A DNA stretch of 64,000 bases from NCBI RefSeq assembly GCF_002224645.1, contig NZ_CP022121.1:3192501-3256500 (forward strand), given 5' to 3'. The notes under the pieces are model-generated. The model was not told the origin of the DNA and searched no databases. It saw only the letters and a program-made list of their open reading frames with translations. The translations under genes were made by a program, and so were the position numbers. Numbering within the stretch: position 1 is the first letter of the stretch; every line of letters starts with the position of its first letter. Below are positions 36,401-58,137 of the stretch, one piece after another. This DNA comes from Dehalobacterium formicoaceticum. Lineage in GTDB: Bacteria; Bacillota; Dehalobacteriia; Dehalobacteriales; Dehalobacteriaceae.

Positions 36401-37957
36401 ATAACGGTCGGCGGCAATTAGCTCACCGATTCGCTTTTGTACCTTTTTCCAGAGTAGAAGGATTTTCGCATCCGGCCCGGTGAGCTTTCCGCTGGTGAGA
36501 GTAATGCCTTTGCCGTCGTGCCATTCGTTGATGTTCGTGCCGATCAGGACAGGCGTCCGCCCGCCGGTGCCGTATTCATTTTTTAGAAAATCGGCGTTTT
36601 CTTTCGCGGAGGCGTTTTGCTGGAAGTGCAGATAAATCCGGTACTTGCCGTCCTGGACACCGCTTCCTTGCTGCAAAACCGCGTCAATGGCTTCCTGGGG
36701 GATAAAAAAAGCGGAGGATTTCTCGTCCTCCGCCTGTTCTATGGCCGCTATTTGCTGTTCCTCGGTTGGCAGCAGGGTTAGCTGTAAATAAGTTCCGCCA
36801 GTACGGTTTCCTCCGCCTGGTGCTTGAGGCTGTTCATGTGGCCCGTCCAGGCCATCTGTTCGCTCGCCTTGTCCGGCGCGGGGCTCTTTTCCAGGAGTTG
36901 TGCCGTGATCCGCTCGACGCGCTCCCTCGCCGTCCGGTCGATCTCCGCCAGGTGGCTGTGCAGGCCCCCCGACAGCATCAGGCTGGCGTACATTCCTTTC
37001 CGGTGGTTTTTCAGGTATGTTCTGCGCAACATCCCATATTTGCCGATGTGTGTTTGTTCTTCCGGCAGGGTCAGGTCGGGTATCAGATAATCGCCCTGCT
37101 GCGTGTAGGTCAGTTCCATGCTCACCGCTCCTTTCGTCAATTTGCTTTACGCTTTTATTGTGCGCCGCTCCTCGATTTTTGGCAAAGGTGCGGCTTTGGT
37201 TTCGCTCCGCTTTTTGCATGTCCTTGACTGTGGCCTCGATTTCCCGCAGGAGCATTTCGGCTATGTCGCTGGTGGCCGCGCCCAAGCGGGAAACGGTGTC
37301 GAGGGTGTTGAAGTTAGGAACGCTCTGAAAATCCTCAAAACGCAGATACTGGTCGGCATTGCAACCGCAGCGGGTTAAAAGCATGTAGGCCACGGAGCTT
37401 TTCAGCGCGTCCTTGAAAAACACCTCGGCGTTCAGATCATCCAATTCTTCCAAAAAACTGCCTTCCCGGAAAGAAAGCAGCTCCGGCAGGTAATCCGTGA
37501 AATTGTCGTCCACCGCGTTTACGGCGGCACTGAGCAAGGCATAGGGCAGGCTGCTTTTTTCGTCTAATTCCCCGAATGTGTTTTCCAGGGATTCTGTCAC
37601 CGCTTCGGCGTATCCGTCCCGCATTTCCCACAGTGGGACGGGACGGTTGTAGCGGCTGTTGGTGTCGCTTACGTCAAACACATGGCGGAGCCTTAACCGG
37701 CCTCCGCTGTCGTCAATGAGGGCAATGCCTTTTGCACCTTTGTTTACCCAGCGTCCCAGTTTTTCGTTCCACACTTCAATGGAAGCGCAGGCCGTCGTGT
37801 CGGGCCGCTGTACGTAAATCAAAAGCTGATCCTGAAACGGATATTTGTAACTCCAGGCCGCGGTTTTCAGGAAGGAAATCCAGTTGGCATGGCTTCTGGT
37901 GACGCTGCGGGCCGTCCTTTCGGAAAGCTCGGTGATCAGTTGCAGCTTGGTTGCCAA
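30452..37957 (-). CDS. Giant ArdC-like / N6-methylase / SNF2-helicase fusion protein
   Basis: The 2501-residue protein holds several domains. An ArdC-like ssDNA-binding region is at about 10-85 (WSYKYPFQDQLLIYVQRP). A Pro/Arg/Gly-rich linker spans about 280-390, and two YodL-like small domains lie near 575-630 and 800-850. An adenine methylase domain has EPSCGIGNF near 1007 and the motif IV variant GNVPFGNY near 1072. An SNF2-type helicase follows, with Walker A CVGGGKT near 1690, VDEADF near 1856 and a C-terminal motor with QRSGRIVRQGN near 2186. It resembles the DarB-type methylase-helicases that protect incoming DNA from restriction. The start is TTG after AAGGAGGG. A role in protecting the transferred strand is inferred. 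Confidence 0.85.
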   Translation of the reverse strand: MATKLQLITELSERTARSVTRSHANWISFLKTAAWSYKYPFQDQLLIYVQRPDTTACASIEVWNEKLGRWVNKGAKGIALIDDSGGRLRLRHVFDVSDTNSRYNRPVPLWEMRDGYAEAVTESLENTFGELDEKSSLPYALLSAAVNAVDDNFTDYLPELLSFREGSFLEELDDLNAEVFFKDALKSSVAYMLLTRCGCNADQYLRFEDFQSVPNFNTLDTVSRLGAATSDIAEMLLREIEATVKDMQKAERNQSRTFAKNRGAAHNKSVKQIDERSGEHGTDLHAAGRLSDTRPDPAGRTNTHRQIWDVAQNIPEKPPERNVRQPDAVGGPAQPPGGDRPDGEGARRADHGTTPGKEPRAGQGERTDGLDGPHEQPQAPGGGNRTGGTYLQLTLLPTEEQQIAAIEQAEDEKSSAFFIPQEAIDAVLQQGSGVQDGKYRIYLHFQQNASAKENADFLKNEYGTGGRTPVLIGTNINEWHDGKGITLTSGKLTGPDAKILLLWKKVQKRIGELIAADRYLNNKEKEHLPAYQQQMEERSQQLAEEAHAREILNREPPPATPEPPARENTQYAFSLGDTVYLGADEYEIFSFDDSTVHLRDISFPLFGKELARSDFERMLRENPLNDHLITAGEAPEQPAEEKTEKPLARTLYLEYLPQVIDRVRKDEIYPYLRDRDTDPDSAKQELDRALDSIILSMREEHPDFYEAYATLPQFREWLQEDVFQRTYQDYLTEPRDLVTIHADDPDAPEWARQTDDITVTHQGHTVTIDSSREGEKSDVELDPELPKAQAGETEKQPAEKEIAVGLELSIDGRRFSIDTIDEEAGTVSLRDITFQNGVGFPIFRRERVGFVRGILKQQTGPVWQKVQGGEVTKVRLDLVPEKPKQPRVNFHITDDELGHGGQKTKYGWNVAAIRLLNQLEKENRLATPEEQEFLAKYVGWGGLPQAFDEANLQWAKEYGELKELLDEDEYNSARASTLNAHYTSPTVIKAIYTCLENMGFQTGNILEPSCGIGNFFGLVPESMKNSKLYGVELDGITGRIARQLYQNANIAVQGFEETNLPDSFFDLAVGNVPFGNYGVADKKYDKHHFLIHDYFFAKTLDKVRPGGIVAFITSSGTLDKQNPEIRKYIAQRAEFLGAVRLPNNAFLKNAGTEVVADIIFLQRRDRVIDIEPDWVHLDKTPEGFTVNSYFIQNPDMILGQLTEENTQYGRQECTCLPHEDADLAELLREALENIHAEITEYEIDDISEDADTSIPADPSVRNFSYCLVDGQIYFRENSRMNRLETSVTAQGRIKGMIGLRDCVRGLIEYQTEDYGDEAILQQQRKLNRLYDAFTAKYGLINSRGNSMAFSDDSAYCLLCSLEVLDENGEMERKADMFSKRTIRQRATVTHVDTAAEALAISIAEKACVDLGLMQSLTGLSEEQLANDLQGVIFRDFGKAEPENAPRAFFHVESFPYVTADAYLSGNVREKLKQVQELAKILPPEQTEKIAVNIKALEAVQPKDLSASEIDVRLGATWLPPDVVKEFMFELLETPYMYQRYIDVLYSNYTANWNVKGKNDDRSDNIKANVTYGTKRINAYKIIEETLNLKDVRIFDTVYEDNVEKRVLNKKETAIAQQKQEAIKEAFRDWIWKDPQRRERLTRIYNDRFNAIRPREYDGSHIRFTGMNPEITLRQHQVDAVAHILYGGNTLLAHCVGGGKTYEMAAAAMEGKHLGLCNKSMFVVPNHLTEQWAGEFLQLYPSANILVATKKDFETKNRKKFCARIATGDYDAVIIGHSQFEKIPISAERQKRQLQEQIWEITDGIQEIKTAKGERYAIKQLEKTKKTLELKLKKLNDTSRKDDVVTFEELGVDRLFVDEADFYKNLFLYTKMRNVAGLAQTEAQKSSDLFAKCRYLDELTEGRGIVFATGTPISNSMTEMYTMQRYLQYETLRRNGLQHFDCWASTFGETVTAIELAPEGTGYRAKTRFARFYNLPELMSMFKEVADIKTADMLDLPVPKANYHNVAVKPSEFQQDMVAELGERAERVRNRMVEPHEDNMLKITNDGRKLALDQRLANPMLPDHEESKVNACVDNIFRFWRDHRDKKLTQLVFCDLSTPKNDGNFNVYDDVRQKLIARGVPADEVAFIHEANTETRKKELFARVRTGQVRALLGSTFKMGAGTNVQDRLVALHDLDCPWRPRDLEQRSGRIVRQGNKNDEVHIFRYVTENTFDAYLYQILENKQRFISQIMTSKSPVRSAEDIDETSLSYAEVKALATGNPLIKEKMDLDIQVSKLKLLKANHLSQRYALEDRLLKHLPKQIKSTEERIAGYEKDIALYEKCSTKEPAGEKAEESKFAGMTVKDITYTEKAKAGTAILEACKAMTSPEPRELGSYMGFPMLFSFDSFNKQYQITLRGALSHTVSLGTDVHGNITRLNNVLADIPLELEYCREQLKTLRQQMETAKKEIDVPFEKEQELQSKSARLHELNILLNMDKAENEIMDDQPDEDLDIPEKKAVGYER

Positions 37958-39287: not shown

Positions 39288-39374
39288 TTATTTTTCTTTC
39301 CGTCTATGCAGGTACACCGCGCTGCCGATAATCACCAGGCAAAGCACGACAGCTAAAATTGTCTTCAACTCCAC
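39288..39374 (-). CDS. 28-residue single-pass membrane peptide
   Basis: The frame runs from a GTG at 39374 to a TAA at 39288 and encodes a 28-residue peptide (ELKTILAVVLCLVIIGSAVY, then LHRRKEK). It has one hydrophobic segment and a basic C-terminal tail. AAGGAGG precedes the start by seven bases, a strong ribosome site. It resembles the small one-span proteins of Tn1549-type elements (for example DUF3789-like). Lying right after the prepilin peptidase gene, it is probably the last gene of the pilus operon. Confidence 0.65.
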   Translation of the reverse strand: MELKTILAVVLCLVIIGSAVYLHRRKEK

Positions 39375-39398
39375 ACAAAAACACCTCCTTGTATTCAA

Positions 39399-39812
39399 TC
39401 AGCAGGTTGGTCCGTAGATAAAAAGAGCACCGGCATACATAAAAAAGCCGATGCACAAAAAGACGGCCAACGGGATGCTTCTCTGCCGGGTCGCCAACCC
39501 ATAGACGCAGGCGGGAAGCAGGGCAAAAAAGAGAATGGCCGCCAACGCATTCAAGCCGAAGCAAAAACCCAGTGCCGCCGTCAGCTTTACATCGCCGCCC
39601 CCCACGCCGCCGTATTTTACGGCCAGAAGGAGCAGGCAAACACCCGGCAGCAGCAATCCCGCAATCCGCTCGGGCCAAGCCGGTTCTGGAAACAAAAAAG
39701 CGGATACGCCGCCGATCAGGAGGATGGAAATCCATGTCCAATCGGGAATAATCCGCTTTTTCCAATCCATGAAAGCCGCCCACAGGAGAGAGATAAAACA
39801 AAGCGGCAGCAT
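39399..39812 (-). CDS. tadV: A24 family prepilin peptidase (TadV/CpaA-like)
   Basis: The 137-residue membrane aspartyl protease cleaves Flp prepilins. The first catalytic Asp lies in MDWKKRIIPDW (about residue 15) and the second in the GxGD motif GGGDVKL near residue 77. About five membrane segments cover most of the chain. I chose the ATG at 39812, one base beyond the stop of the CARDB gene; the longer frame to 39860 lies inside that gene. The ribosome site is weak, so translation is probably coupled. Confidence 0.85.
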   Translation of the reverse strand: MLPLCFISLLWAAFMDWKKRIIPDWTWISILLIGGVSAFLFPEPAWPERIAGLLLPGVCLLLLAVKYGGVGGGDVKLTAALGFCFGLNALAAILFFALLPACVYGLATRQRSIPLAVFLCIGFFMYAGALFIYGPTC

Positions 39813-39813
39813 A

Positions 39814-42800
39814 TCAATTTCCCGTGGTGACATCATCGTCGTACATGCTGTCCACCACATAGATTTTCAGCGCCCCGCCGGTAATCCACTTGGACAGTGT
39901 TCCGCCGGGAGTATGAGCATCGGTGACAAGGAGCTGCGCGATGTAGTCCTTATCGTCGGGGAACCAGATGGGGACGTACTGCCTCCTATATCGGAAGGGG
40001 GAGGAGGGGTTCTCCTGGAAAACAAACTGGCCGCCTTCCTTCTCTAAGGGAATGGCGGTTTCATAACGGTGCTCGGGCAGATAAATTTCTGCAACTTGTG
40101 GAGCGGTAATCAGTTCCGGCCTGTCGTAGTTGCTATTCACGGTGGCGGTGACAAGGATGCCATAGCCATAACCCGATTTAAGATAGCCGCGGGATTTGGT
40201 GTCGTAGTCCAATGCGGCGGTAACTTTCAGCTCCGCGTAAAACTGCCGCCACACAAATTGACCGTTTTCATAGCGTTGCTCCCACCATGTCACCCTGGGC
40301 TGTTCGCTTCTTGGCGGCGGGTCGGGCAGCGTCCGGCTTTCCTCCGGTTCCGTATAGGTTACGTTTTTGATGACGGCCGATTGGGTATAGGTGTTGTTGC
40401 TTGTAGAAGTTTCATTATCCAAAATCTTATCGGGGTTGATGATGGCAATCAGGGTAACGCCCTTATCGGCCTGCACACTAGGGGTATCCCATTTGACCGA
40501 CACGGTATTCCAGGTATTTTGCTCCATGACTACCGCGTCCACGCGCTTTTGCAGCGAAAGCTCCGGAATTTGAAACAGCACGGAAACTCTCTCGCCGGGT
40601 GTAAAATCCATGCTTCCTTGGTTGGATACCCGGATGGTGCTGATCACCGTTTGGTTTTCTTTATATTGGGCGGGCGTAATGCGCTGCACGTCCAGATCAT
40701 AGGGGCGCTCCAACACCATGATTTCCGCCGCCGCCTGGTTGTTGCCCATATTGGTATCCGTGTAATCCGTAGGCGGCGACACCTGCGCCGCAAGCCGGAT
40801 GCTGGTTCCTTTTTCGCCTGCCGTGCCGGAGATAAGGAAGGATTTCTTTTCATAGGCTTTGAAATTGGCCGTGGCGGGCACGGCGGGAACCGCCTTGCCG
40901 TCGATGGCGGCATTCAGGACCACATCGGTCAAGGCCTTGCCGGTGGAATTGGCAAAGTATACGGTGAAGCTGTATTCCTCCTGCTGGTAGGCTATGGGCG
41001 GCCAGGACAGATTCACCCATACGTCGCACAGTAGGTTATCGGGGTTATCTGGATTATTCGGATTGTCCGGGTCGTCTGGATTATCCGGGTTGTCAGGGTC
41101 CGGGGGGTTATGCGGGTCCTCCGGGCTGCCGGCAGGTCTTGCCACGACCGTGACGCTTGAAACGGCGGTGTTATTGCTAGGATTTCTGTCAATAAAGCCC
41201 TCCGGCGCTTGCACGTTGGCCCACAAATGATATATCTCGCCTGCCTTTCCCGCCGTGTCCTCAATCGTAAAGGACTTGGTTTCTCCCGGCTGGAAGGCTG
41301 CTGTTTGCGGAATTTCCACCAGCGTATTTTCATCGCTTTTCCCTTCCAGGGGTACAGCATTCAGCTCCCGGCCGGAATGATTGGTGAAACTTACGGTATA
41401 GGCGTATTTTTCATATTCGTAAACGGTCGGCGGCGCAAGAATGGCAGCCGCCAGGTCGCAGGGTTCCTTCAGGCCGGGCGGTTCGTCCGGGGGATTGCCA
41501 GGATTGCCGGGGTTATCCGGCGTGTCCGGCTCGTCGGGCGTGTCGTTGTCACCGGGCGTCGGTTCCGGCGCGGGGTCAACCACCTTGATAATAGCCGTGG
41601 CTGTGTTGTTATCAGGATCGTCGTCAATAAAGCCTTCGGGCACGCCGATATGCGTCCAGAGACGGATTTCGTCGGCGGCGGTGTCCGCCGTGCGCTTCAC
41701 TTCATAGGCTTTGCTGGTATTGGCCGGGAAGTCCTGCGTGACCGGTATTTCTTTAATGGTTACGTCGTCCACCGTACCCTTTAGGGGTACGTCATAGGCC
41801 GGACTGCTTCCGCTGTTCAGGTAAATCACGGTAAAAGAATAGCTGTCGCCCCGGTTCACTGTGGCGGGGGCGCGGATGGCAACCGACAGATCGTTTCCTT
41901 CACATGCTTTGAACTTAAAGTAAAATTGAGCAGCAGGAATTTGGTAGTGGATTTTCTGCGTGATTTCGGTCTGCGTTTTGCTTTCCCCATCGGTGTATTC
42001 GGCGGTTTCCGGGGTGTAATCCCATTCAAGGCCGCAATAGATGAAGTTGCGGGACAGCGGAATATCGTCTTTGGCAAAGGTTACAGAGGTGGTTTGATAA
42101 GGATAAAGAAGTTCCGGCACACCTTTGTCTTGGGCGGTGAGCTTCCCGAAAATCTCCTGCTTATTTTCGTCGCACCAGGTTGCTTCTACATCAATCTTTA
42201 CCGGGGCTTGATAGGATAGTGCCGTGTCCCGCATGGTTTCAAAGGCGACGAGCGTCTTTGCCGTCCAGCCGTAGCGGGTGGTCAGCGGTTCAAAATCGGT
42301 GTCCGTGTCATAGGTTCCGTACAGTTTGCCGGAAGCATGGCCGTGGATTTCCACTACCAGGCTGCCTTTCAGAGTGTAGGTCCCGCCGTCACAGCGGTTG
42401 ATCCAGGCGGCGATCCGCTCCTGTTCATGGTCGGCCACAGTGTTGGCGCTGACGAGATCAATGCGCTGCGGCTCCGGGAAGGCTTTCAGCAGCGTTTCGC
42501 CCTCATAGATTTCTTTCACGTTCATGCCGATGGTGCGGTAGCGGGTGTCATATGTGGCGGGGACTTGGAAAACCACATTGGCCGTAACGACAAGAACGGC
42601 CCCTTCATCTGTCTGGGCGGTGACAGTATAAGGGCCGCAAGCCTCCTTGTTTTCAATGGTCAATGGATAGTTTGGGGTTATCGCTTGGCTTTGGCCGCCG
42701 TACTCCAGCCGAACCTCTGTAAGATTGCCGGTTTTAGCCGTGGTATTTATAGAAATCCGGGCCGGGAATTGCTCCACGGCGATCACTCCGCTTTCACTGG

Positions 42801-42927
42801 CCAGGCTGTCTATGGGAGAAGCGATATTGATGGCCATGTCGCTCTCCGACAAGGCGAAGGCTTGTGCCGACATCAGCAGGCAGCAGACCAGCACAAGCGG
42901 AATGGCAAGGATGAGCTTTTTAATCAT
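39814..42927 (-). CDS. Secreted CARDB-repeat protein, possible pilus-linked adhesin
   Basis: The 1037-residue protein has a signal peptide (KKLILAIPLVLVCCLLMSAQ, cleavage near AFA). Four CARDB-like beta-sandwich domains lie at about 350-450, 500-600, 640-740 and 745-850, three of them ending in variants of GFIDxxPxNNTA. Between domains lie Pro/Asp/Asn-rich spacers (PDNPDNPDDPDNPNN). No LPXTG motif or C-terminal membrane anchor is seen, so it is either released or held by the pilus. It sits inside the Tad operon: its ATG overlaps the frame-restored end of the TadE-like gene by four bases, and its stop abuts the prepilin peptidase. An adhesin role is inferred. Confidence 0.8.
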   Translation of the reverse strand: MIKKLILAIPLVLVCCLLMSAQAFALSESDMAINIASPIDSLASESGVIAVEQFPARISINTTAKTGNLTEVRLEYGGQSQAITPNYPLTIENKEACGPYTVTAQTDEGAVLVVTANVVFQVPATYDTRYRTIGMNVKEIYEGETLLKAFPEPQRIDLVSANTVADHEQERIAAWINRCDGGTYTLKGSLVVEIHGHASGKLYGTYDTDTDFEPLTTRYGWTAKTLVAFETMRDTALSYQAPVKIDVEATWCDENKQEIFGKLTAQDKGVPELLYPYQTTSVTFAKDDIPLSRNFIYCGLEWDYTPETAEYTDGESKTQTEITQKIHYQIPAAQFYFKFKACEGNDLSVAIRAPATVNRGDSYSFTVIYLNSGSSPAYDVPLKGTVDDVTIKEIPVTQDFPANTSKAYEVKRTADTAADEIRLWTHIGVPEGFIDDDPDNNTATAIIKVVDPAPEPTPGDNDTPDEPDTPDNPGNPGNPPDEPPGLKEPCDLAAAILAPPTVYEYEKYAYTVSFTNHSGRELNAVPLEGKSDENTLVEIPQTAAFQPGETKSFTIEDTAGKAGEIYHLWANVQAPEGFIDRNPSNNTAVSSVTVVARPAGSPEDPHNPPDPDNPDNPDDPDNPNNPDNPDNLLCDVWVNLSWPPIAYQQEEYSFTVYFANSTGKALTDVVLNAAIDGKAVPAVPATANFKAYEKKSFLISGTAGEKGTSIRLAAQVSPPTDYTDTNMGNNQAAAEIMVLERPYDLDVQRITPAQYKENQTVISTIRVSNQGSMDFTPGERVSVLFQIPELSLQKRVDAVVMEQNTWNTVSVKWDTPSVQADKGVTLIAIINPDKILDNETSTSNNTYTQSAVIKNVTYTEPEESRTLPDPPPRSEQPRVTWWEQRYENGQFVWRQFYAELKVTAALDYDTKSRGYLKSGYGYGILVTATVNSNYDRPELITAPQVAEIYLPEHRYETAIPLEKEGGQFVFQENPSSPFRYRRQYVPIWFPDDKDYIAQLLVTDAHTPGGTLSKWITGGALKIYVVDSMYDDDVTTGN

Positions 42928-43408
42928 GGGGAACCTCCTTCCTCAATGCGGATGTTGACGCTGGATATGGTAAAGGGAAGCCGGATCGTGCCGCTCAGAA
43001 AGTTAAAAACGCTGCGGGTTTTCAGCGCCCCGGTCAGCGTCAGGCAGGGGGGCTGTCGGTGGCGTCGATGCGCTCAACTTCAAGCTGGTAAACCCACTGA
43101 TTCCCGGCATACTTATTTAATCCAGAATCCAGCTCCATATTTTCGTAGAAATAGGCGTACAGCATCTCTTGGGCCAGGGCGCTGTCCATCCGGGAATAGC
43201 CGTCCCGACGGTAATCGTCCCGCATGGCGTATTCCACGGAGCTGTTTACGCCCCGCTGGAGAACATATTCCACCTGCTGATACAGGCTTTCCATGCGGAA
43301 GTATTCGATAAGCATTACGGAAAGGGTCAGAATGAAAAAGACAAGGATCAGGATAAACAAAAAAACGTCGCCTTTGCGGTTGTTCATCATTCGATTAAAA
43401 TGGCCCAC
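42924..43408 (-). pseudogene. TadE-like minor pilin, frame broken at a C6 run
   Basis: From the GTG at 43408 (after AAAGGAGG) the protein has one N-terminal membrane segment (GDVFLFILILVFFILTLSVM) and a soluble part typical of TadE/TadG minor pilins. It stops at 43040 after DATDSPPA. Adding one C to the C6 run (plus-strand G6 at 43047-43052) restores a frame that continues CLTLTGALKTRSVFNFLSGT and ends at 42924. There it overlaps the CARDB start as ATGA. The restored end fits the operon so well that either a real frameshift, phase variation or an assembly error is present. Confidence 0.7.
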
Positions 43409-43429
43409 GGCTTTCCTCCTTTCCGGCGC

Positions 43430-43918
43430 TTATTCGGGCAGTTTCCAGTATTTCTCCGACATGCCGGTGATACTTACGCGCATGGGAATATGGATTTGAA
43501 TGGGGGCCGTAAAGGACGGCCTGAAAAGAGTAAAGGCGTGGCTGTATGCCATTGTGATGGTGAAAGTGTCCCTTAACTGGATTTTTTGGTTTTGCTCATC
43601 GCAATACGCCACGTCTTCGACGGTCATTTCCGGCGACAGGCCGGTTTGCTGCTTCAACCGATAAAACACGTCATAGGCGGGTTCGGCTATTTGCCCCTCC
43701 AGTTCAACCACGCGCACAACCCGGCGGCACATGTGATTCAAATTCAAATAGGTCGTGAAAACGCCCAAAAAGCTGATTACCGTGGCCATAAGCGTAATCA
43801 CTACCAGGGTCTTGATGATCAGATCGATATAACTGCTGCCTTTTTGGTTCAAAAGCAGCTTAGGAAAAGGCCGGGGGAGAGAAGCTCTCCCCCATAAGCC
43901 CCGGTGCTGTCTGTTCAT
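43430..43918 (-). CDS. DUF4320-like Tad pseudopilin
   Basis: The 162-residue protein has one N-terminal hydrophobic segment (LIIKTLVVITLMATVISFLG, about residues 32-52) and a soluble C-terminal domain with VEDVAYCDEQNQKIQLRDTF and IPMRVSITGMSEKYWK. It resembles DUF4320 proteins that follow Flp1-like pilins. It is likely a minor pseudopilin. The ATG at 43918 follows GGGAGGTGCAAGAGCA; the frame is open further upstream but only by overlapping the Flp gene. It lies 21 bases upstream of the TadE-like gene. Confidence 0.75.
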   Translation of the reverse strand: MNRQHRGLWGRASLPRPFPKLLLNQKGSSYIDLIIKTLVVITLMATVISFLGVFTTYLNLNHMCRRVVRVVELEGQIAEPAYDVFYRLKQQTGLSPEMTVEDVAYCDEQNQKIQLRDTFTITMAYSHAFTLFRPSFTAPIQIHIPMRVSITGMSEKYWKLPE

Positions 43919-43965
43919 TGCTCTTGCACCTCCCGCATCCGCGGATATGCTTTTTGCGCCTTTCA

Positions 43966-44175
43966 TCAGTTCAACAGGTTGGTGATTTTGGCAACGATAC
44001 TGTTCCAGATAGTGGTGATGGAGCCTTGATACAGGGTCATAAAGACCGCGCCCACCACCACGACAATGAGCACCACGATGAGCCAACCGGTCATTTGGTC
44101 CCCGGAGGGGTTTGCCAGTACGTTCCGGGCTTTCAGGCCCGCCATTTTGATTTTGTTTTTCAAAGCAGTCATCAT
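43966..44175 (-). CDS. flp: Flp1-like pilin, second copy
   Basis: The 69-residue pilin precursor has a basic leader (TALKNKIKMAGLKARNVLAN) and then the hydrophobic pilin core MTGWLIVVLIVVVVGAVFMT. The C-terminus is LYQGSITTIWNSIVAKITNL. This is the Flp1-like family of monoderm Tad systems. The start at 44175 follows GGAGGT. It is a close tandem paralogue of the next gene upstream; nearly all differences are in the leader. Confidence 0.88.
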   Translation of the reverse strand: MMTALKNKIKMAGLKARNVLANPSGDQMTGWLIVVLIVVVVGAVFMTLYQGSITTIWNSIVAKITNLLN

Positions 44176-44255
44176 GATAAATACCTCCATATTTGTTAGA
44201 TTTGGTTGGAAAGGGAAGCAATGCCTCCCCTTGGGCCGCTGCCTTTTGGCGGCAA

Positions 44256-44453
44256 TTAGTTCAAAAGGCCGGTAATTTTGGTGACGATACTGTTCCAGAT
44301 GTCGGTGATGGAACCCTGATACAGGGTCATGAAGATTGCGCCCACCACCACGACAACCAGCACCACAATCAGCCAGCCGGTCATTTGGTCGCCGTCGCGC
44401 TTTGCCAGCACGTTTCCGGCTTTCACCAGAGCGGTAGTCATCCTTTTTCTCAT
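44256..44453 (-). CDS. flp: Flp1-like pilin, first copy
   Basis: The 65-residue pilin precursor has a basic leader (RKRMTTALVKAGNVLAKRDG), the hydrophobic core MTGWLIVVLVVVVVGAIFMT and the C-terminus LYQGSITDIWNSIVTKITGL. The ATG at 44453 follows AAAGGAGG; the longer frame to 44492 contains that ribosome site. The core is nearly identical to the second copy at 43966-44175, pointing to tandem duplication of the major pilin. Confidence 0.88.
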   Translation of the reverse strand: MRKRMTTALVKAGNVLAKRDGDQMTGWLIVVLVVVVVGAIFMTLYQGSITDIWNSIVTKITGLLN

Positions 44454-44556
44454 GGATTTTCCTCCTTTCTTCGGTATTGAGGGGGTCCGCATTTTTTTAC
44501 ATGCTCTACCTCCTAGAAGATGGTTATTTGAAAGGGGCTTTCCCCGTTTCAGCGCG

Positions 44557-45462
44557 CTAAAAAAGGCCCCCCATTGATCGGGTCATGTGGGAGCCGATGA
44601 CGTAGAGCAGGGTAGCCAGGGTCACGGCCACCAGCGGTATAGATGCGATTTTGACCCGGCGGGGCAGCAGATTCAGTTTTGTCTTGAGGGCTTCCCTGGC
44701 TTTGAGGTCCATGTCCCGGGCGAGATAGGCCAAGGCATCCCCTTGGCGCTCGCCCCGGTGCAGTCCGATGAGGGCGTTGACGAGAAAGGAAATATCGGTC
44801 AGGCCGAGACGCGCGTTGAAGTTGCGCAGCGCGGCTTCAATGCTGATGGACTTCATCTCCAGGACCAGAATGGAGATGTCGTCATAGAACACGTCGCTGG
44901 CAACGCGCAGATAATCTTCAAAGATTTGCACCAGGTCCGCCTGGACGACGGTTTTTTGGCTGTCTCCCCGCATGTCGTCCAGCTTGTACAGGATGGAGCG
45001 GATAAAACTTGGCATTTCCATTTCAATGCGCTTCTTTTTCGCTTTCAGTTGGTCTTTCAGGTCGGACGTAAAATGGAAATAGACAACCACCGCGAAGATG
45101 ACAATGATCGGAGTGAGGCTTGCCGCGCCGATGAGCAAAAGCGGAATCAGGAGCAGCAGGGTGAAGGCGGCGCAGATAAGCGCCCTTGCCTGGTATTCCT
45201 GGGGTGTGAGGCCCAGCCCCCCACGCCGCAGCATGGAGAACATCCTTGCTTCCTGTACGGGGTCGAGCCGGATCAGCCGGGCAACCGGCTTGACCAGGGG
45301 CATGACCAAGCGGTTCAGCAGCCGTTTGCCCGGTTTCTCTTTTTGGGTCTGCAAATTTCTCAGGTTTTTCTTCATGCTGGCCCTGGGGATTTTCCAAAGC
45401 TCCCGGCAAATGAAAAATCCTGCCGCCAGCAGCAGGATGAAAACGACAATTTGGTAAAACAA
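44557..45462 (-). CDS. tadC: TadC-like inner-membrane pilus assembly protein
   Basis: The 301-residue protein has a T2SSF (GspF-like) core with an N-terminal hydrophobic segment (FYQIVVFILLLAAGFFICRE), a central pair (ICAAFTLLLLIPLLLIGAAS) and a last segment near the C-terminus. It is the platform protein that works with TadA. A long frame reaches 45528, but the TTG at 45462 lies seven bases after AAAGGAGG and beyond the tadB stop, so I use it. It follows tadB with a short gap. Confidence 0.85.
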   Translation of the reverse strand: MFYQIVVFILLLAAGFFICRELWKIPRASMKKNLRNLQTQKEKPGKRLLNRLVMPLVKPVARLIRLDPVQEARMFSMLRRGGLGLTPQEYQARALICAAFTLLLLIPLLLIGAASLTPIIVIFAVVVYFHFTSDLKDQLKAKKKRIEMEMPSFIRSILYKLDDMRGDSQKTVVQADLVQIFEDYLRVASDVFYDDISILVLEMKSISIEAALRNFNARLGLTDISFLVNALIGLHRGERQGDALAYLARDMDLKAREALKTKLNLLPRRVKIASIPLVAVTLATLLYVIGSHMTRSMGGLF

Positions 45463-45478
45463 CGGTGAACCTCCTTTG

Positions 45479-46393
45479 CTATCGGTTGGCCGGTTTCGTC
45501 GCCCGCAGCACGTAAAAGGCCGTGCCAAGGGCGGTCAGCAGCATGAGGACAACCAGCAGCTTGCCGATGGCGGTTGCGGTTAGGATGGAAAACCATTCGG
45601 CGTTGGAGAAGCGCATGAGGGGAATCACGCTGAACATCAGGGCCGCGGTCAATAAATAGTCCCGCCAGACGCGTACCATCATGCCGTCGCTCTCCACTTG
45701 CATGGACTTGGCGTCGTTCATGGCCTTTACTATAGGAAACAAAGCGAATTTCAACCGCCGGTCGTGATGACAAAGAATAAGCATTTTGGTCCACTCGGCA
45801 AAATAGCGGTTGCGTATTTTTGCCGACAAACGGTACAATCCATGTTCGATGTTGGGATTGATGTATTTTATTTCCGAAATAAACTCGTCAAAGGGCGTGA
45901 TGGTTCTCAGATGGATTGGAAGGTAACGGTTTTTTTCTTCAACATACAACTCGATTGCTTTGACAATATCGTCGCAAGAGGCGTAGGCGTTGGTAATGAC
46001 GGACATTGTGTTCTCCAATCCTTCTATTTCCTCCCGCGCCACCGTCGCGCTTTTTACGGTCAGGAAGATGTAGGGGACGGGAAGCAGACATGCCGCCGCT
46101 ACCGCCGCCAGGTCCGGGCTGTTAAACAGCATCATTCCGGACAGAAAACCACCTGCCGCCGTTGCCAGCATCATCATGAGAAATTTCTTCCGCGTGCAGC
46201 GGGTCTGCCGGAACAGGGTTTGCAAGCGGATGGCGATTCGCTCGGCGGTTTTCAGCTTTGCGCCTGTGAGATAGAGGCGGCGTTTTTTCAGCAGGTTCTG
46301 CTCCACCGCAAAAGGGTTCAGGTTTAGCAGAAGGAACAGGGCAAAGCTAATAAGCCCGAACACAAGCATCAGGAATAGATGAATAGAGTTCAT
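45479..46393 (-). CDS. tadB: TadB-like inner-membrane pilus assembly protein
   Basis: The 304-residue protein has an N-terminal membrane segment (LFLMLVFGLISFALFLLLNL), a pair at about 80-120, a soluble GspF-like domain with SVITNAYASCDDIVKAIELY, and a C-terminal pair. It forms the platform with TadC. Its start overlaps the tadA stop by four bases (ATGA), so the genes are coupled. Confidence 0.85.
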   Translation of the reverse strand: MNSIHLFLMLVFGLISFALFLLLNLNPFAVEQNLLKKRRLYLTGAKLKTAERIAIRLQTLFRQTRCTRKKFLMMMLATAAGGFLSGMMLFNSPDLAAVAAACLLPVPYIFLTVKSATVAREEIEGLENTMSVITNAYASCDDIVKAIELYVEEKNRYLPIHLRTITPFDEFISEIKYINPNIEHGLYRLSAKIRNRYFAEWTKMLILCHHDRRLKFALFPIVKAMNDAKSMQVESDGMMVRVWRDYLLTAALMFSVIPLMRFSNAEWFSILTATAIGKLLVVLMLLTALGTAFYVLRATKPANR

Positions 46394-47790
46394 GGGGAGC
46401 CTCCTTCCGCACCTTCCGCAAAGCGGCGGATTTCCTTTTGCGGAACGCCACCTATTAAGAGCTTTTCGGCCAGCGCCGGGGAAATGTTGCCCAAACGCCG
46501 GTGGCTTCCCGCTACTTTGGCAATTCTTTCGGCTTTGTCATGCTCATAGTGGTCCACTGCATAGCGGTAAAGGGTGGTGCCGGTGACTTCACCATTCCGC
46601 ACGCCGGTGGCTTCAAAAATCTCCATGTATTTGCGGGATTTGTCCGGGAGCTGCCGTTTGAAAACCATAATCGGAAACGCTTCAACGATATTGCGCAGCA
46701 ACCGTTCCTCCGACAGTGAGGTCCCGGCTTCCAGGCACATGGTTAAAATCCTGTCGTAAGCGGATCCGGCGCTGTTGGCGTGCAGGGTGCTCACAATGGT
46801 GTGCCCCGTCCGCCCGGCCTCCTGCACGGTCAAGGCCTCCGAACCGCGCATTTCCGCCGGGACAAGTATTTCCGGGTGCAGCCGTAGCGACAGCTTTAAT
46901 AAGTCCAGCATGGTGACGGGATTTGGCGCTTCTTTTGTCAAAAGGTGAATCACGTCATTGGACATAATGCCGTTTTCATCGTACTTGGCCAGGGATAATT
47001 CCCGCGTGTCCTCGATGGTGACAATGCGCTTTGCGGGAGCTACGGAACTGAGGATATAGCCCATGTCTGCCGTTTTGCCGCTGCCGGTGGCTCCGGCGAT
47101 GGCTATGGAAACGCCATTGTTGACACAGATAGTCAAAAAGTCCAATTCCTCCGCCGTCGCCGTCCCCCAGCGAATCAGGTTCTGCCTGGTGATGAAAGAC
47201 GGCTTTTGCTTGCGGATGGAGGCGATGGCTCCGGCGTTTGCGTCAACACAGGGCTCTATTGCGCCCGACATTCTGACGCCCCGTGAAATATAGCTGTCCC
47301 CGACAGGCTTCGAGCCATCAAGGATTACGCCGCCAAACCTGCTCATTTTCCTGACGATGTTGGCGCAGGCTTCCGGGCTGCCGAAGGTTTCCGGCAGGCG
47401 CACCTTTTTGTCCTTGTACTGCACCCAGACGCCGCTATAGCCATTGACATTGATTTCCTCGGTATCGTCGTCCTGCAAATAGGGGGATAAAAGCCCCATA
47501 AAGGCCATATCGTTATATACCGCGTCCACCAGCTCGGAAATGTTCCGCACGTCCTTAGCTACCAATTGTTCGCTGGCTAAGTAGCGCATAATCAGGTCTT
47601 TGAGCTTGGCTTCAGCTTCTTGGGAGTACAGGACCTGGGCTAGCTCCGTGGAATGGTTTTGAGCGATAATGCGCTGTAATTTGTCTAAAATCTCGCCGTA
47701 GTCCCGCGCCTCCAGGTTGCTTTCCTCAGTGGCGGAACGCCGCTTATTAGCGCGATAGATCAAGTCATGGATGGAAAATCGGCTGTTCAT
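46390..47790 (-). CDS. tadA: TadA/CpaF pilus assembly ATPase
   Basis: The 466-residue hexameric secretion ATPase powers Flp pilus assembly. Walker A IAGATGSGKTADMGY lies near residue 235, ASP-box-like RIVTIEDTRELSLA follows, and the Walker B region LRLHPEILVPAEMRGSEA and His-box TGHTIVSTLHANSAGSAYDR come after. The length is standard for CpaF. Its start overlaps the tadZ stop by four bases. The order cpaB-tadZ-tadA-tadB-tadC is the classic Tad order. Confidence 0.94.
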   Translation of the reverse strand: MNSRFSIHDLIYRANKRRSATEESNLEARDYGEILDKLQRIIAQNHSTELAQVLYSQEAEAKLKDLIMRYLASEQLVAKDVRNISELVDAVYNDMAFMGLLSPYLQDDDTEEINVNGYSGVWVQYKDKKVRLPETFGSPEACANIVRKMSRFGGVILDGSKPVGDSYISRGVRMSGAIEPCVDANAGAIASIRKQKPSFITRQNLIRWGTATAEELDFLTICVNNGVSIAIAGATGSGKTADMGYILSSVAPAKRIVTIEDTRELSLAKYDENGIMSNDVIHLLTKEAPNPVTMLDLLKLSLRLHPEILVPAEMRGSEALTVQEAGRTGHTIVSTLHANSAGSAYDRILTMCLEAGTSLSEERLLRNIVEAFPIMVFKRQLPDKSRKYMEIFEATGVRNGEVTGTTLYRYAVDHYEHDKAERIAKVAGSHRRLGNISPALAEKLLIGGVPQKEIRRFAEGAEGGSP

Positions 47791-48524
47791 GGCTTGCCAC
47801 CTCCGCAGATTCCGTCAGCAATCTGTTCCAGCACCTTGCCGTAATACCGGCAGGCCCGGTCGCGGTGGAAATACAAGGGCGTTCCAGCGTTTTGCAGCTC
47901 GCTGGCTCGCTTGACGTAAGGCAGCTCAAAGGGAAAGTAAAGTCCGGTCATCTCCCGGTAGGTCTGATCGTCGAATTCGCCGTTAGGAGCTTGCAGGATA
48001 TGGATTTGCTTTTCCGCTATGTGCAACTCCCGCACAAAATCGGCAACGCCCTGATGCCACATCTGCGCCGCAATGGAAGGCCGGTGCAGGGTGCAGATTG
48101 TTTCCGCCAGCCACAAGCCCACGCCTGACACCGGGTTTGTCAGCTCCGCGGCTCCGTCGATGATTAGAATGTCGAACACCACGGATGCGGCGTTGATCAT
48201 CTGTTCCACCTGCTCAAGGGTCACGGTATCACAGAGAAGGCCGGTATAGCGGCTGGGTGGGGACAGGAAAAACAGGTTTTTGCTCTCTCCGGACGCTACG
48301 AATTTTTCCCCGATGTTGGGGTTGTCTTCGCTTAGTGCCCGGAACATGCCCTTATCCGGGGGGACATTCTGGCCGAAGAAGATTTGCAGCTCTCCGAAGA
48401 CCAAATTGGAAGAAATGAGGGCCACCAGACGCTCACGGACGGAAAGGGCGTAAGCCAGGTTGGTCGCGAAGGTGCTTTTTCCGCTGTTGTTGCCGCCCCA
48501 GACGGTGATGATTTTACTGCTCAT
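47787..48524 (-). CDS. tadZ: TadZ/CpaE-like localisation ATPase
   Basis: The 245-residue ParA-like ATPase starts with the P-loop TVWGGNNSGKSTFATNLAYA and contains FDILIIDGAAELTNPVSGVG. Proteins of this kind place Tad pili at the right site in the cell. The CheY-like N-terminal domain of some CpaE proteins is absent. It overlaps the CpaB-like gene by 11 bases and tadA by four. Confidence 0.82.
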   Translation of the reverse strand: MSSKIITVWGGNNSGKSTFATNLAYALSVRERLVALISSNLVFGELQIFFGQNVPPDKGMFRALSEDNPNIGEKFVASGESKNLFFLSPPSRYTGLLCDTVTLEQVEQMINAASVVFDILIIDGAAELTNPVSGVGLWLAETICTLHRPSIAAQMWHQGVADFVRELHIAEKQIHILQAPNGEFDDQTYREMTGLYFPFELPYVKRASELQNAGTPLYFHRDRACRYYGKVLEQIADGICGGGKP

Positions 48525-49224
48525 GGCTCACACCCCGTTTCTCAAAGACCAAGTGCAGTTTGCCGGTGTATTCGGCCTGGATAAGCCTTTCCGCTTGCGC
48601 TTCGGTGACGATCAATGTCACGGCTTTCACGATGGGGTCCCCGGTGGAGGACTGGCTTTCGGCCTGCTGCTTCCGGACCTGGGCGGCATCCTGGGCGCGG
48701 GCATTCTCCGCGCTGTAAACCTCCAGTTCTTTTAATTCGGAATAGATGATCACCTGCGGAGAGGCGCTTTGCCCGTTGGGTGATTTGTCCGTAAACACGG
48801 CCACCGTTACGATGTCACCGCTTCTTAGGTGGGAGGATAATCCCGCCGCGATGCTGGGCACGCTGATAGTGACCAAACGTTGATTGTTTGCGGCAATGCG
48901 GTCAAGCAGCTTGCTGGCAACCGTTCCGCCGAGTTTTTGCGGAAACAAAAAATCTCCCTTGGCAATGTCCGTCTGCGCGATTTTTCCAATAATCAGGGAC
49001 TTGTCATTCATGACATTCTCCGGCAGGCCATAGCTTCCGACTTCCGCTGAAACAAGGTGTTTGTCCTGGATTTCCGTCCCTGCTGGGATGTCCGCTGCCG
49101 CCCGCAACACTGTCGCGGTCGCGTTTTTGCTTTCGTAAAAGCGAGGCAACAGAAAAAACGAAACGCCCGCCGCCAGGATTAGGCAAAGGGCGCTTAAAAA
49201 TATCCGATTCTTGAGTAGCTTCAA
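48514..49224 (-). CDS. cpaB: CpaB/RcpC-like SAF-domain protein
   Basis: The 236-residue protein has an N-terminal membrane segment (IFLSALCLILAAGVSFFLLP) and a SAF domain (ATVLRAAADIPAGTEIQDKH, then ISVPSIAAGLSSHLRSGDIV). It is the first Tad gene after parAB. In Gram-negative bacteria CpaB stabilises the secretin; here no secretin exists, so the role in the monoderm system is unknown. The start is a TTG after AAAGGAGG. Confidence 0.83.
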   Translation of the reverse strand: MKLLKNRIFLSALCLILAAGVSFFLLPRFYESKNATATVLRAAADIPAGTEIQDKHLVSAEVGSYGLPENVMNDKSLIIGKIAQTDIAKGDFLFPQKLGGTVASKLLDRIAANNQRLVTISVPSIAAGLSSHLRSGDIVTVAVFTDKSPNGQSASPQVIIYSELKELEVYSAENARAQDAAQVRKQQAESQSSTGDPIVKAVTLIVTEAQAERLIQAEYTGKLHLVFEKRGVSHEQ

Positions 49225-49671: not shown

Positions 49672-50613
49672 TTATCGTTCCTGCTCCCGCTGTCGCTTTT
49701 TGTACCAGCTTTCAAGCAACTGAACAATTAAGTCCTCTTTTTGTTTTTCGGTAAAGTTACTAGGGAAAAAACGGTCGATGCGCTCACGCTGGATATTGAA
49801 TTTTTCCTTTTGATTGGGCTTTTCTTCAGTGAGAATAGAAAAGATGACGTCCACACTCAGCCGCCCGTCCTGACTGAGCTTTTTCATCCGTTGCGCCTGC
49901 GCCAAAGACGGAGTGCAGTCTTCCGATTGCATGGTTTCATAAAGCTCCTGCTGTTCCTTTTCGGCCAAATAGGAAAGCTCCACAGCAGGATTAAAGGCAA
50001 TTTGCTTTTCGTCTACCATTTCAAGAATGGAGGGGAGCAAGGAGGTAAGGCGAATATGGCGGAAAATCTGATTTTTACTTTCGCCCATTTGTTCTGCTAA
50101 AATTTCACTTGATTTTTTACCGTCTAACTTGTTCCCAACTTGGGAACAAGTTAAATCTGTTCTTTGTCCCTGCCTGTTCATGGCTTCCAGCTTCATTTTA
50201 TAGGCAAAAGCTTTCTCGCTTGGCAGGATGCTTTCCCTTTGTAGGTTGCTGTCAACCATAATAATGGTGGCCTGATCATCGTCCAGTTCCCGGACAATGC
50301 AGGGCATTGTTTCCAATCCCGCAAGCTTGCTTGCCTTTTTGCGCCGGTGCCCGGCCACCATTTCAAAGCCGCCGCCTGTTTTTGGCCGCACGAGGCCGGG
50401 GACCAAAACGCCATACTGCTTTACGCTGTCCGCCATTTCCAGCATGGCTTCATCCGCTTTTACCTTAAAAGGATGGTTTGGGAAGTCGCTGATTTCAGAC
50501 AGGGGAATGTCCAGCACCTTTTCACGCTGTTCCTCGGCGCGGCTTTCCTCTGTGGTGAAAAGATCATCTACTGAGGCCAGCTTGATGCTGTCTCTTGCGC
50601 TGCTTTTCGCCAA
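49672..50613 (-). CDS. parB: ParB-like partition protein
   Basis: The 313-residue DNA-binding partner of ParA has a ParB/Srx-like N-terminal domain (LDIPLSEISDFPNHPFKVKA), the box MVAGHRRKKASKLAG, and a central helix-turn-helix region containing SSEILAEQMGESKNQIFRHI. It ends in QREQER. I chose the TTG at 50613, nine bases after AAGGAGG, overlapping parA by 50 bases; the frame to 50799 runs backwards through parA and is rejected. It helps keep the element or its circular form. A 29-bp palindrome lies in its coding sequence. Confidence 0.85.
   Translation of the reverse strand: MAKSSARDSIKLASVDDLFTTEESRAEEQREKVLDIPLSEISDFPNHPFKVKADEAMLEMADSVKQYGVLVPGLVRPKTGGGFEMVAGHRRKKASKLAGLETMPCIVRELDDDQATIIMVDSNLQRESILPSEKAFAYKMKLEAMNRQGQRTDLTCSQVGNKLDGKKSSEILAEQMGESKNQIFRHIRLTSLLPSILEMVDEKQIAFNPAVELSYLAEKEQQELYETMQSEDCTPSLAQAQRMKKLSQDGRLSVDVIFSILTEEKPNQKEKFNIQRERIDRFFPSNFTEKQKEDLIVQLLESWYKKRQREQER
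50125..50153. other. 29-bp perfect palindrome inside parB (candidate parS)
   Basis: Arms TAACTTGTTCCCAA and TTGGGAACAAGTTA meet at a single C. The palindrome encodes part of LTCSQVGNKLD in ParB, so both coding and palindrome are conserved here. A self-encoded ParB binding site (parS) is the likeliest reading; a translation-control hairpin is an alternative. Confidence 0.6.
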
Positions 50614-51388
50614 TGTCCTGTACCTCCTTCGTAAAGGCTTCATAGGCTTTTGCCGCCAGACCGTGAGGGTCGTGAAGGTAAATACTCTTTCCTCTGGCGC
50701 TGGTTTCCGCCGCACGGATAGACAAGGGGATTTCCGTTTGGAAAATGCGCAGTTTGTCACCGTAGTCGCGGCGCAGGATAAAGGAAATGTCCTTGGCAAA
50801 GTTGGTGCGGGTATCCACCATTGTCACCAAAACGCCGTCAATGGTCAGCTTCGGATTGATTTGCCGTCTTACCCTGGCTATGGTCTGTAAGAGCTGCGTC
50901 ATTCCTTTGGCGGGCAAATAGTGTGCCTGAACGGGAATGATAACACTGTCTGCGGCAGCAAGGGCGTTGATGGTCATCATACCTAAGCTCGGCATACAGT
51001 CGATCAGTACATAGTCGTACTTGTCTTTGACGGTGTTGATGTAGCTGCGCAACACCGTTTCCCGGCTCATGGTGTTGACGAGTGACACCTCAATCGCGGA
51101 CAATTCGATGTTTCCCGGCATGAGGTCAACACCTTCCGAATGGCGAAGGATGCCCTCGTCAGATCCATACGGTTCCTCCATCATTGTCTTAGTAAGGATA
51201 GTAGCCAGCGTAACGGGTAAATTGTCCGGTTCCCGATAACCCAATGAGTCTGTCAGGTTTCCTTGAGCATCCGCGTCTACCAGTAACACCTTTTTTTCTT
51301 GTGTCGCAAGGCCGATACCCAGGTTGACCGTTGTGGTCGTTTTGCCCGTGCCGCCTTTCTGGTTGGCAAGGGCGATTACTTTTGACAC
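50564..51388 (-). CDS. parA: ParA-family partition ATPase
   Basis: The 274-residue ATPase has the deviant Walker A KGGTGKTTTTVNLGIGLA at residues about 11-28, VLLVDADAQGNLTDSLG and YDYVLIDCMPSLGMMTINAL. It moves DNA by a Brownian-ratchet mechanism together with ParB. The GTG start lies nine bases after AAAGGAGG. An IS element now lies about 50 bases upstream, inside a hairpin of the 5' region, so its normal promoter may have been cut off. Confidence 0.92.
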   Translation of the reverse strand: MSKVIALANQKGGTGKTTTTVNLGIGLATQEKKVLLVDADAQGNLTDSLGYREPDNLPVTLATILTKTMMEEPYGSDEGILRHSEGVDLMPGNIELSAIEVSLVNTMSRETVLRSYINTVKDKYDYVLIDCMPSLGMMTINALAAADSVIIPVQAHYLPAKGMTQLLQTIARVRRQINPKLTIDGVLVTMVDTRTNFAKDISFILRRDYGDKLRIFQTEIPLSIRAAETSARGKSIYLHDPHGLAAKAYEAFTKEVQDIGEKQRKRQHQAGLSR

Positions 51389-52184: not shown

Positions 52185-52210
52185 GCGGCGTTCGGCAGGA
52201 AAGTTTTTAC

Positions 52211-58086: not shown

Positions 58087-58137
58087 AATAAACTCCTCCA
58101 CGAATTAGTTTGCAACTGCTTCTTAGTTCTTTAATAG

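Follow-up and report, generated by a model that had tools for sequence, protein, structure and literature searches.

A Tad-like pilus operon linked to the type IV secretion genes of conjugative elements in Bacillota: a candidate mating-contact module

Why should a conjugative element of a Gram-positive bacterium carry the genes of a Tad pilus? Outside the aggregation-substance plasmids, little is known to us of the ways in which Gram-positive donors locate recipients and keep hold of them, and we know of no pilus described for grabbing recipients in ordinary Gram-positive conjugation. The question is raised by a 64,000-nucleotide stretch of the Dehalobacterium formicoaceticum genome (the window, to which positions below refer), in which a sequence-only reading had noticed a Tad/Flp operon accompanied by parAB and type IV secretion system (T4SS) genes. 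Our analysis points to Tad-type pilus genes that form a family apart, come with a surface protein of their own, reside in transfer elements across Gram-positive bacteria and probably let donors grab their recipients.

The carrier of the operon is an integrative conjugative element (ICE) bounded by tRNA-Leu sequences and equipped with a tyrosine integrase and a T4SS of the CD1110/CD1115 type, which bears out the proposed location inside a conjugative element that also encodes VirB4, a VirB6-like protein, VirD4 and a relaxase. The ICE spans 68.5 kb (G000:C1:3183033-3251550, i.e. window -9467 to 59050) and is larger than what the window shows. A 17-bp exact repeat at its ends splits a tRNA-Leu gene, and joining of the flanks restores an intact tRNA-Leu(CAA) fold (ARAGORN). 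The left partner of the core GGACTCAAAATCCAGTG lies outside the window, at G000:C1:3183033, and the integrase (PF00589 1.2e-28) is encoded at window -9039 to -7564. The right end and the remaining element genes are:

59034-59050, plus strand: attachment-site core GGACTCAAAATCCAGTG; right element end, exact repeat; the tRNA-Leu(CAA) 3' half comes after it
30452-37957, minus strand: 2501-aa helicase/methylase-type protein (SNF2-like by inspection alone; element A homologue 81%)
22903-24294, minus strand: MOB_P-type relaxase (PF03432 4.5e-40)
19277-21040, minus strand: VirD4 coupling protein, CD1115 family (NF045973 545 bits, cut-off 250)
17807-18646, minus strand: VirB6/TrbL-like protein (PF19478 9e-4, under the curated cut-off; element A 88.5%)
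12712-15048, minus strand: VirB4 ATPase, CD1110 family (NF045971 1062 bits, cut-off 325)
10192-12204, minus strand: M23 peptidoglycan hydrolase, VirB1-like role (PF01551 6e-33)

The Tn1549/CTn4-type ICEs of Bacillota resemble this element in the VirB4 and VirD4 families (both above the curated cut-offs), the MOB_P relaxase and the tyrosine integrase. The present element differs from them in its integration into tRNA-Leu and in its Tad-like operon; we know of no tad genes in the published descriptions of Tn1549. Genes of the elements are under purifying selection, with dN/dS of 0.08-0.16 between two collinear elements, for which dS is saturated. The contents of the 24.6-29 kb region are not alike in these two elements.

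The Tad-like operon comprises 11 genes in a single minus-strand run, from 49224 down to 39399, with overlaps of 11, 4 and 4 nt, as had been noticed, and another of 47 nt. All the Tad genes named by the sequence-only reading are found in this run, and parB and parA lie upstream (50799-49672 and 51388-50564), as it had stated. Its description of the system as full has to be qualified on two counts: the tadE gene is frameshifted in this copy, and Glu5 of canonical Flp pilins is missing. The operon and the upstream genes are:

50564-51388, minus strand: ParA partition ATPase (Pfam AAA_31 2e-57)
49672-50799, minus strand: ParB (Pfam ParB_N 5.8e-18; element A homologue of 313 aa, 86% identical)
48514-49224, minus strand: CpaB/RcpC (RcpC, PF16976, 2.7e-17; SAF 1.5e-9)
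47787-48524, minus strand: TadZ, MinD-like localisation ATPase (MinD 3e-5, weak; position; in 51/51 testable loci)
46390-47790, minus strand: TadA/CpaF-like assembly ATPase (T2SSE 1.3e-26; TIGR03819 2.2e-38, under its own cut-off)
45479-46393, minus strand: putative TadB platform protein (homology to the annotated TadB of pCCELLA01)
44557-45459, minus strand: putative TadC platform protein (start by alignment, ORF opens at 45528; homology to annotated "secretion protein F"/T2SSF genes)
44256-44492, minus strand: pilin 1, GDQMTGW type (class III signal G|DQMTGW and hydrophobic stretch; alignment of 111 pilins)
43966-44190, minus strand: pilin 2, GDQMTGW type (DUF6133 0.011, weak and under the curated cut-off; same alignment)
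43430-43915, minus strand: DUF4320 pseudopilin (PF14208 5.5e-38; start by alignment with relatives)
43040-43408, minus strand: TadE-like pseudopilin (frameshift close to a C6 tract, from three-frame translation against relatives)
39814-42927, minus strand: 1037-aa secreted surface protein (CARDB 1.5e-9; domain mapping; AF2 models)
39399-39860, minus strand: A24 prepilin peptidase (PF01478 6.9e-17)

The complete core gene set was present in 46 of the 51 testable loci, and ParA is also kept upstream of the Tad operon in element A and in loci L027, L031 and L032. The true start of ParB is probably internal to the annotated ORF, since its relatives have about 313 aa. TadB and TadC gave no Pfam match, T2SSF included, and were named by homology to annotated genes of relatives and by their expected position. 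When the TadA profile was compared with PDB, CpaF was the top match (1e-46), ahead of FlaI and VirB11. Rfam, run on the window, detected no riboswitch within the operon; scanning for promoters and terminators did not yield convincing signals for it, and a PHROGs search returned nothing useful.

In the alignment of 111 pilins, position 5, which is Glu in canonical Flp pilins (G|xxxxE), is Asp across the broad clade (G|EGYID) and Gly in the group of the window (G|DQMTGW), and we therefore call the system Tad-like, i.e. a variant. Because Glu5 is missing, the pilins may form a short pseudopilus instead of a long fibre. The TadE of the window has 122 aa, compared with 161 aa in its relatives; the frameshift may be real or a sequencing error.

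The largest and most informative gene of the operon, absent from the sequence-only reading, encodes the surface protein, which consists of a signal peptide, a variable N-terminal region, three Ig-like/CARDB repeats and a conserved C-terminal part of about 280 aa. This C-terminal part is kept in nearly all relatives, while the N-terminus is swapped. The protein was present at 49/51 loci, and among 72,556 plasmids it occurred in only six, all of which also carry tadA of the same clade. The AF2 model of the protein from the window is poor overall (pLDDT 58) and trustworthy in the repeats only. A fold search with the model of a 579-aa relative returned generic Ig-like matches and the CARDB domain 3idu (TM 0.54 on target), with no ligand or enzyme hint.

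A single branch with 99% support parts the TadA proteins of this group (clade TadA) from canonical TadA. Within 47 genomes of relatives, 55 clade tadA genes had some VirD4 gene on their contig; for 53 of these it lay within 50 kb, without exception on the same strand, as against 0/39 for canonical tadA of the same genomes (Fisher p=9e-12, with counts that are not independent across the clade). An even sample of the phylum, in which 15 of 299 genomes (about 5%) were positive, gave VirD4 linkage in 18/18 cases, including 9/9 in single-contig genomes. The Tad gene set is thus found beside VirB4/VirD4 in other elements across Bacillota, as had been suggested, and this survey contradicts the contrary expectation, that such clusters exist only as chromosomal loci with no relation to ICEs. 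Clade tadA genes without VirD4 on the contig (37/92) are mostly located on short MAG contigs, with at least two on large ones (G055:C13 and G047:C23). In the D. formicoaceticum genome all three Tad loci reside in conjugative elements, each in a separate one. Surveys of its own order (4 genomes) and own class (16 genomes) found no relatives. In 11 loci the Tad block is flanked by the VirD4 and VirB4 genes. TadA distances correlate with those of VirD4 (r=0.87) and VirB4 (r=0.85; Mantel p=0.0005), so that TadA has co-diverged with the T4SS, to which its genetic linkage looks obligate. The reverse does not apply: many VirD4-bearing elements in the surveyed genomes have no Tad, and Tad is therefore not universally needed.

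Taking into account this synteny and co-divergence, which favour a role in mating contact, we consider it reasonably probable that the operon is an accessory module, composed of a Tad-like pilus and a modular adhesin, of the Gram-positive conjugative element and its T4SS. The short pilins would be processed by the A24 peptidase and built into the pilus by TadA, TadB, TadC and TadZ, with CpaB and the pseudopilins (DUF4320, TadE/G) serving in initiation or anchoring. The CARDB/Ig-repeat protein would sit on the pilus or its tip via its conserved C-terminal part and bind the recipient by the variable part at its N-terminus. By extending, and perhaps also retracting, the pilus would then draw the recipient to the T4SS of the element (VirB4, VirB6, VirD4, M23 hydrolase, MOB_P relaxase), which would move the DNA. 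We infer that the operon makes a pilus, that the surface protein is located on it, and that its target is a recipient cell and not a eukaryotic host. A far-reaching version, in which a Bacillota clade possesses a composite Tad-T4SS machine whose pilus and swappable adhesin are required for DNA transfer and set the recipient range (a true monoderm conjugative pilus, with an evolutionary origin apart from VirB2 pili and from the type IV pili known in IncI plasmids and PAPI-1), is offered tentatively and seems to us rather doubtful.

The Tad proteins might also form no free pilus but a short pseudopilus inside the transfer channel, akin to PAPI-1, in which a type IV pilus together with VirB4/VirD4 performs the transfer, with TadA as the VirB11-type ATPase that is usually absent from Gram-positive T4SSs. 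The flanking of the Tad block by VirD4 and VirB4 in those 11 loci, the tight co-divergence of TadA with both proteins, its membership in the VirB11/CpaF superfamily, the non-canonical pilins and the PAPI-1 precedent (reviewed in PMC12857230) agree with such a machine. We nevertheless think it unlikely, as the elements retain a normal T4SS set (VirB4, VirB6-like protein, VirD4, M23 hydrolase), the best solved relatives of TadA are CpaF and not VirB11, and a large extracellular modular protein in nearly all loci better fits a surface fibre. Moreover, near relatives of such T4SSs function without Tad.

The Tad block is a fixed part of the elements, keeps its synteny and lies within the run of T4SS genes, whereas cargo genes vary between elements (e.g. 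in the 24.6-29 kb region), and its carriers include environmental genera (Desulfosporosinus, Geosporobacter, Paenibacillus) besides many gut bacteria. These observations make it quite improbable that the operon is cargo with no role in transfer, encoding an adhesion pilus by which the bacterial host colonizes a host or surface, even though Tad pili elsewhere are adhesins, the gut carriers would suit this reading, and tissue adhesion was proposed by the authors for a linear plasmid of Cutibacterium acnes with tad and VirB4/TcpC genes (PMC5696575). Enclosure of the operon by exact element ends, the unlinked canonical TadAs of the same genomes (none of 39 within 50 kb), the consistent linkage in the phylum sample and the separation of the clade by one supported branch refute chance hitch-hiking, i.e. 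an ordinary chromosomal Tad locus lying beside, or picked up by, an unrelated element, to which we attach almost no probability. What speaks for such an event is that bacteria commonly have Tad loci and that these have frequently been transferred horizontally.

Among known systems, the Tad/Flp pilus (Aggregatibacter tad, Caulobacter cpa) shares with the mating-contact module proposed here a single operon of CpaB, TadZ, TadA/CpaF, TadB and TadC (both putative in the module), small pilins, a TadE-like pseudopilin and an A24 peptidase. The present operon differs in having no secretin or outer-membrane parts, in pilins without Glu5 of the Flp motif, in the added DUF4320 pseudopilin and large CARDB/Ig-type surface protein, in its location on a conjugative element and in its separate TadA clade. 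In IncI plasmids (R64, TP114) the type IVb thin pilus, with the PilV shufflon adhesin, likewise combines a type IV filament and a modular adhesin with a T4SS on one mobile element, and it aids transfer in liquid and in the gut (PMC9045228, PMC8213034). That system is built of T4bP genes in Gram-negative bacteria, and its role in transfer was demonstrated for TP114 and R64, whereas here Tad genes are involved and the role is a proposed one; our family searches with the operon found no T4bP pilin or PilV matches. PAPI-1 of Pseudomonas aeruginosa joins a T4P-type machine with VirB4/VirD4 on an integrative element, but the element described here has a fuller, Gram-positive T4SS and a Tad-like pilus. 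On our preferred reading, the Tad-like pilus would work in the way of the type IV pili that IncI plasmids or PAPI-1 encode, to which it is unrelated. By gene content, the C. acnes plasmid (p15.1.R1, pIMPLE-HL096PA1) is also similar, since this one Gram-positive plasmid carries both a tad locus and genes of the VirB4/TcpC type; it differs in being actinobacterial and in its FtsK-type and TcpC genes. Plasmid-positive C. acnes cells bear appendages (PMC5696575), and a connection with conjugation was left open by the authors.

A T4SS review of December 2025 describes conjugation that involves type IV pili in IncI plasmids and PAPI-1, and names Patescibacteria as monoderms with potential conjugative pili; the word "Tad" is absent from it (PMC12857230). 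In the library that we searched, we found no prior description of the Tad-T4SS arrangement in Bacillota, nor an experiment demonstrating a pilus of this clade or its influence on transfer. The recurrent gene set described in this study, which links a T4SS with a Tad-like pilus and a modular surface protein, opens pilus-assisted conjugation of Gram-positive bacteria to direct tests in which genes are removed one by one, the surface protein being the likeliest to affect which recipients are bound. DUF4320 together with clade TadA may serve as a marker for annotating conjugative elements, and many of the Tad loci of gut Bacillota that have been taken for chromosomal adhesion systems may in fact belong to conjugation.

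A phage origin was considered and dropped, the matches in phage collections being mostly unannotated faecal contigs. An association of c-di-GMP riboswitches with clade tadA found no support (only 4 riboswitches within 30 kb, 4.7 by chance). Near VirD4 genes, 16 riboswitches were counted for 5 expected.

The 3.77-Mb genome, assembled as a single contig, carries in the window (G000:C1:3192501-3256500) the following operon:

49224 down to 39399, minus strand: Tad-like operon of 11 genes

From 49224, these encode CpaB, TadZ, TadA, TadB, TadC, two small pilins, a DUF4320 pseudopilin, a TadE-like pseudopilin, a 1037-aa secreted protein and an A24 prepilin peptidase. Overlaps join CpaB/TadZ (11 nt), TadZ/TadA and TadA/TadB (4 nt each) and the secreted-protein and peptidase genes (47 nt), and ParA and ParB genes adjoin the operon directly upstream. 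All genes named in the sequence-only reading were found on the minus strand, but its list was incomplete, lacking the secreted protein. TadE changes frame near a C6 tract (43040-43060) and stops at 122 aa, the remainder of its coding sequence being still readable in another frame; relatives have an intact protein of 161 aa. The shift may be a sequencing error. An IS3-type transposase pair (51501-53071) directly upstream of parA may alter par-tad expression.

The same reading placed the operon within a conjugative element, and this was borne out. A 17-bp direct repeat, GGACTCAAAATCCAGTG, has its left copy 9.5 kb to the left of the window (G000:C1:3183033) and its right copy at window position 59034. 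Between them they split a tRNA-Leu(CAA) gene, whose 5' half ends with the left copy and whose 3' half begins with the right one; the joined flanks yield a complete 87-nt tRNA-Leu(CAA), while neither side alone was read as a tRNA. The element thus bounded comprises 68,518 bp (G+C 48%, versus 43-44% in the flanks), with a tyrosine integrase just inside its left end. It encodes a CD1110-family VirB4 (1062 bits; cut-off 325) and a CD1115-family VirD4 (545 bits; cut-off 250), together with a VirB6-like protein, an M23 hydrolase and a MOB_P relaxase. It is therefore an integrative and conjugative element (ICE), which resembles Tn1549/CTn4 in the type of its transfer apparatus. Next to the integrase at the left end lies a second, intact tRNA-Leu(CAA) (10705-10790 of L023, a region holding part of this ICE), a spare that may replace the gene split by the element.

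A TadA search of the genome revealed two further loci, in elements that we term A and B; other TadA-like matches were partial, weak and of another pilus ATPase type. Element A (590-633 kb) shares its gene order with the window's ICE from ParA to RadC, its tad and most transfer proteins being 72-92% identical and its M23 protein only 42%. The dN/dS values between these two tad sets (0.08-0.16, with dS saturated) indicate that the genes have been kept by selection. Divergence is much greater in element B (about 139-174 kb; TadA 36%), which again contains a Tad set, a surface protein and VirB4-like and VirD4 genes.

A profile built from six TadAs and run on the genome collection gave 80 loci, all in Bacillota (Clostridia and Paenibacillus). 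Across 47 of these genomes, 92 matches above 500 bits (the clade) were cleanly separated from the 39 taken over as canonical TadAs at or under 400 bits, with one partial match in between, and in a tree of 107 TadAs the two sets fall on opposite sides of one branch (support 99). VirD4 genes were located independently. Among the VirD4 matches listed, the strongest of the set, 55 clade TadAs share a contig with VirD4, 53 of them within 50 kb and all 53 on the same strand, versus 3/39 canonical TadAs sharing a contig and none that close (Fisher p=9e-12; members of one clade do not give independent linked counts). A second, less biased search covered 299 genomes drawn evenly from the phylum. Fifteen (about 5%) carry the clade, and 18/18 TadAs with VirD4 on their contig lie within 50 kb of it on the same strand (read by eye; a weak 355-bit match in one genome, G337, is excluded), with 9/9 linked in five single-contig genomes; five further TadAs have no VirD4 on their contig. 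The check proposed in the sequence-only reading, a search for this gene set beside VirB4/VirD4 in other elements, was thus positive; the interpretation is supported and extends from one locus to a Bacillota-wide module.

All 51 loci with enough flank have CpaB, TadZ, TadB, TadC, DUF4320 and TadE/G; 50 have the peptidase, 49 the surface protein and 48 a pilin, and the set is complete in 46. VirD4 recurs in two positions relative to TadA, upstream at 4-15 kb or downstream at 20-40 kb, and in 11 loci the entire Tad block has VirD4 on one side and VirB4 on the other. Plasmids pTPHSE1 and pESS10701c likewise carry the Tad set immediately upstream of VirD4, along with a MobP2 relaxase. TadA distances track those of VirD4 (r=0.87, 19 loci) and VirB4 (r=0.85, 17 loci), with Mantel p=0.0005; those of VirD4 and VirB4 are correlated at r=0.98. 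Taken together, linkage, strand, layout and co-divergence mark the Tad set as resident in these elements and not as cargo.

Flp pilins have Glu at position 5, whereas the 111 pilins aligned begin, once processed, with G|E-x-[YF]-[VI]-D in most cases and G|DQMTGW in the window's group, so that Glu is replaced by Asp or Gly; in view of this departure we call the system Tad-like. The surface protein is modular. Its common 580-aa form gave no match in Pfam. The window's 1037-aa form has only the last ~280 aa in common with that form, whereas its N-terminal region and its three Ig-like CARDB repeats are peculiar to it. An AF2 model of the 579-aa form (pLDDT 77) is rich in beta-strands and matches the structure of a CARDB domain; this form occurs in six records among 72,556 plasmids, the same six that carry clade tadA. 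We infer a pilus-borne adhesin, of which a conserved C-terminal anchor and exchangeable outer parts would be expected.

Beyond the established genes, element ends, linkage, co-divergence, selection and modular partner protein, we propose that a Tad-like pilus would be built, bear the surface protein and draw recipients to the T4SS. IncI plasmids offer the working parallel: PilV adhesins of their type IV pilus select recipients, and this pilus is dispensable on solid support but required in liquid and in the gut (PMC9045228). The main alternative is that TadA and a pseudopilus would serve the transfer channel itself as parts of a composite machine, as has been proposed for PAPI-1 (PMC12857230). 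Colonisation cargo, a role proposed for a C. acnes plasmid (PMC5696575), accords less well with the fixed synteny.

The authors of a C. difficile genome paper noted a contig that holds CpaB/CpaE/CpaF genes as well as parAB, and suspected a plasmid. A 2025 T4SS review describes T4P-T4SS partnerships for Gram-negative bacteria and, among monoderms, credits Patescibacteria with potential conjugative pili; the word 'Tad' is absent from it (PMC12857230). No mention of DUF4320 was found in the literature searched, which excluded most subscription journals and all bioRxiv preprints, so an earlier description is possible.

Several neighbouring features were also observed. A TIR-TPR gene (25598-28120; TIR_2 1e-18) lies between the Toprim protein and the relaxase region of the ICE; since element A has different genes there, the site resembles a hotspot for cargo, possibly defence. 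DNA methylase, ResIII helicase and TnsA-like nuclease genes (53450-58101), likely a restriction-modification set, lie between the IS3-type element and the ICE right end. In relatives, AbiTii, Schlafen-AlbA/TIR and GmrSD-HNH genes, likely for defence, are inserted within or beside the tad block (regions L094:7196-17676 and L105:6464-8029). pemK RNA motifs (RF02913) occur near the integrase ends of the window's ICE (L023:12922-13019) and element A (L014:8505-8605, in a region holding part of it), and a third ~19 kb beyond the element B VirD4 (L018:10070-10166, likewise). c-di-GMP-I riboswitches are in excess near VirD4 in the genomes searched (16 observed, 5 expected; 15 of them share its strand, and most lie 1-16 kb downstream), which suggests c-di-GMP control of some transfer-element genes; one lies at L018:11314-11402, and another is found 5.3 kb upstream of tadA in each of three Desulfosporosinus-type loci. 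Just outside the ICE, a glycine reductase locus contains a glycine riboswitch (63864-63953) and a SECIS_4 element (60836-60873) beside an ORF whose end is at 60874. The gene probably encodes a selenoprotein and would be truncated at the TGA by standard ORF calling.
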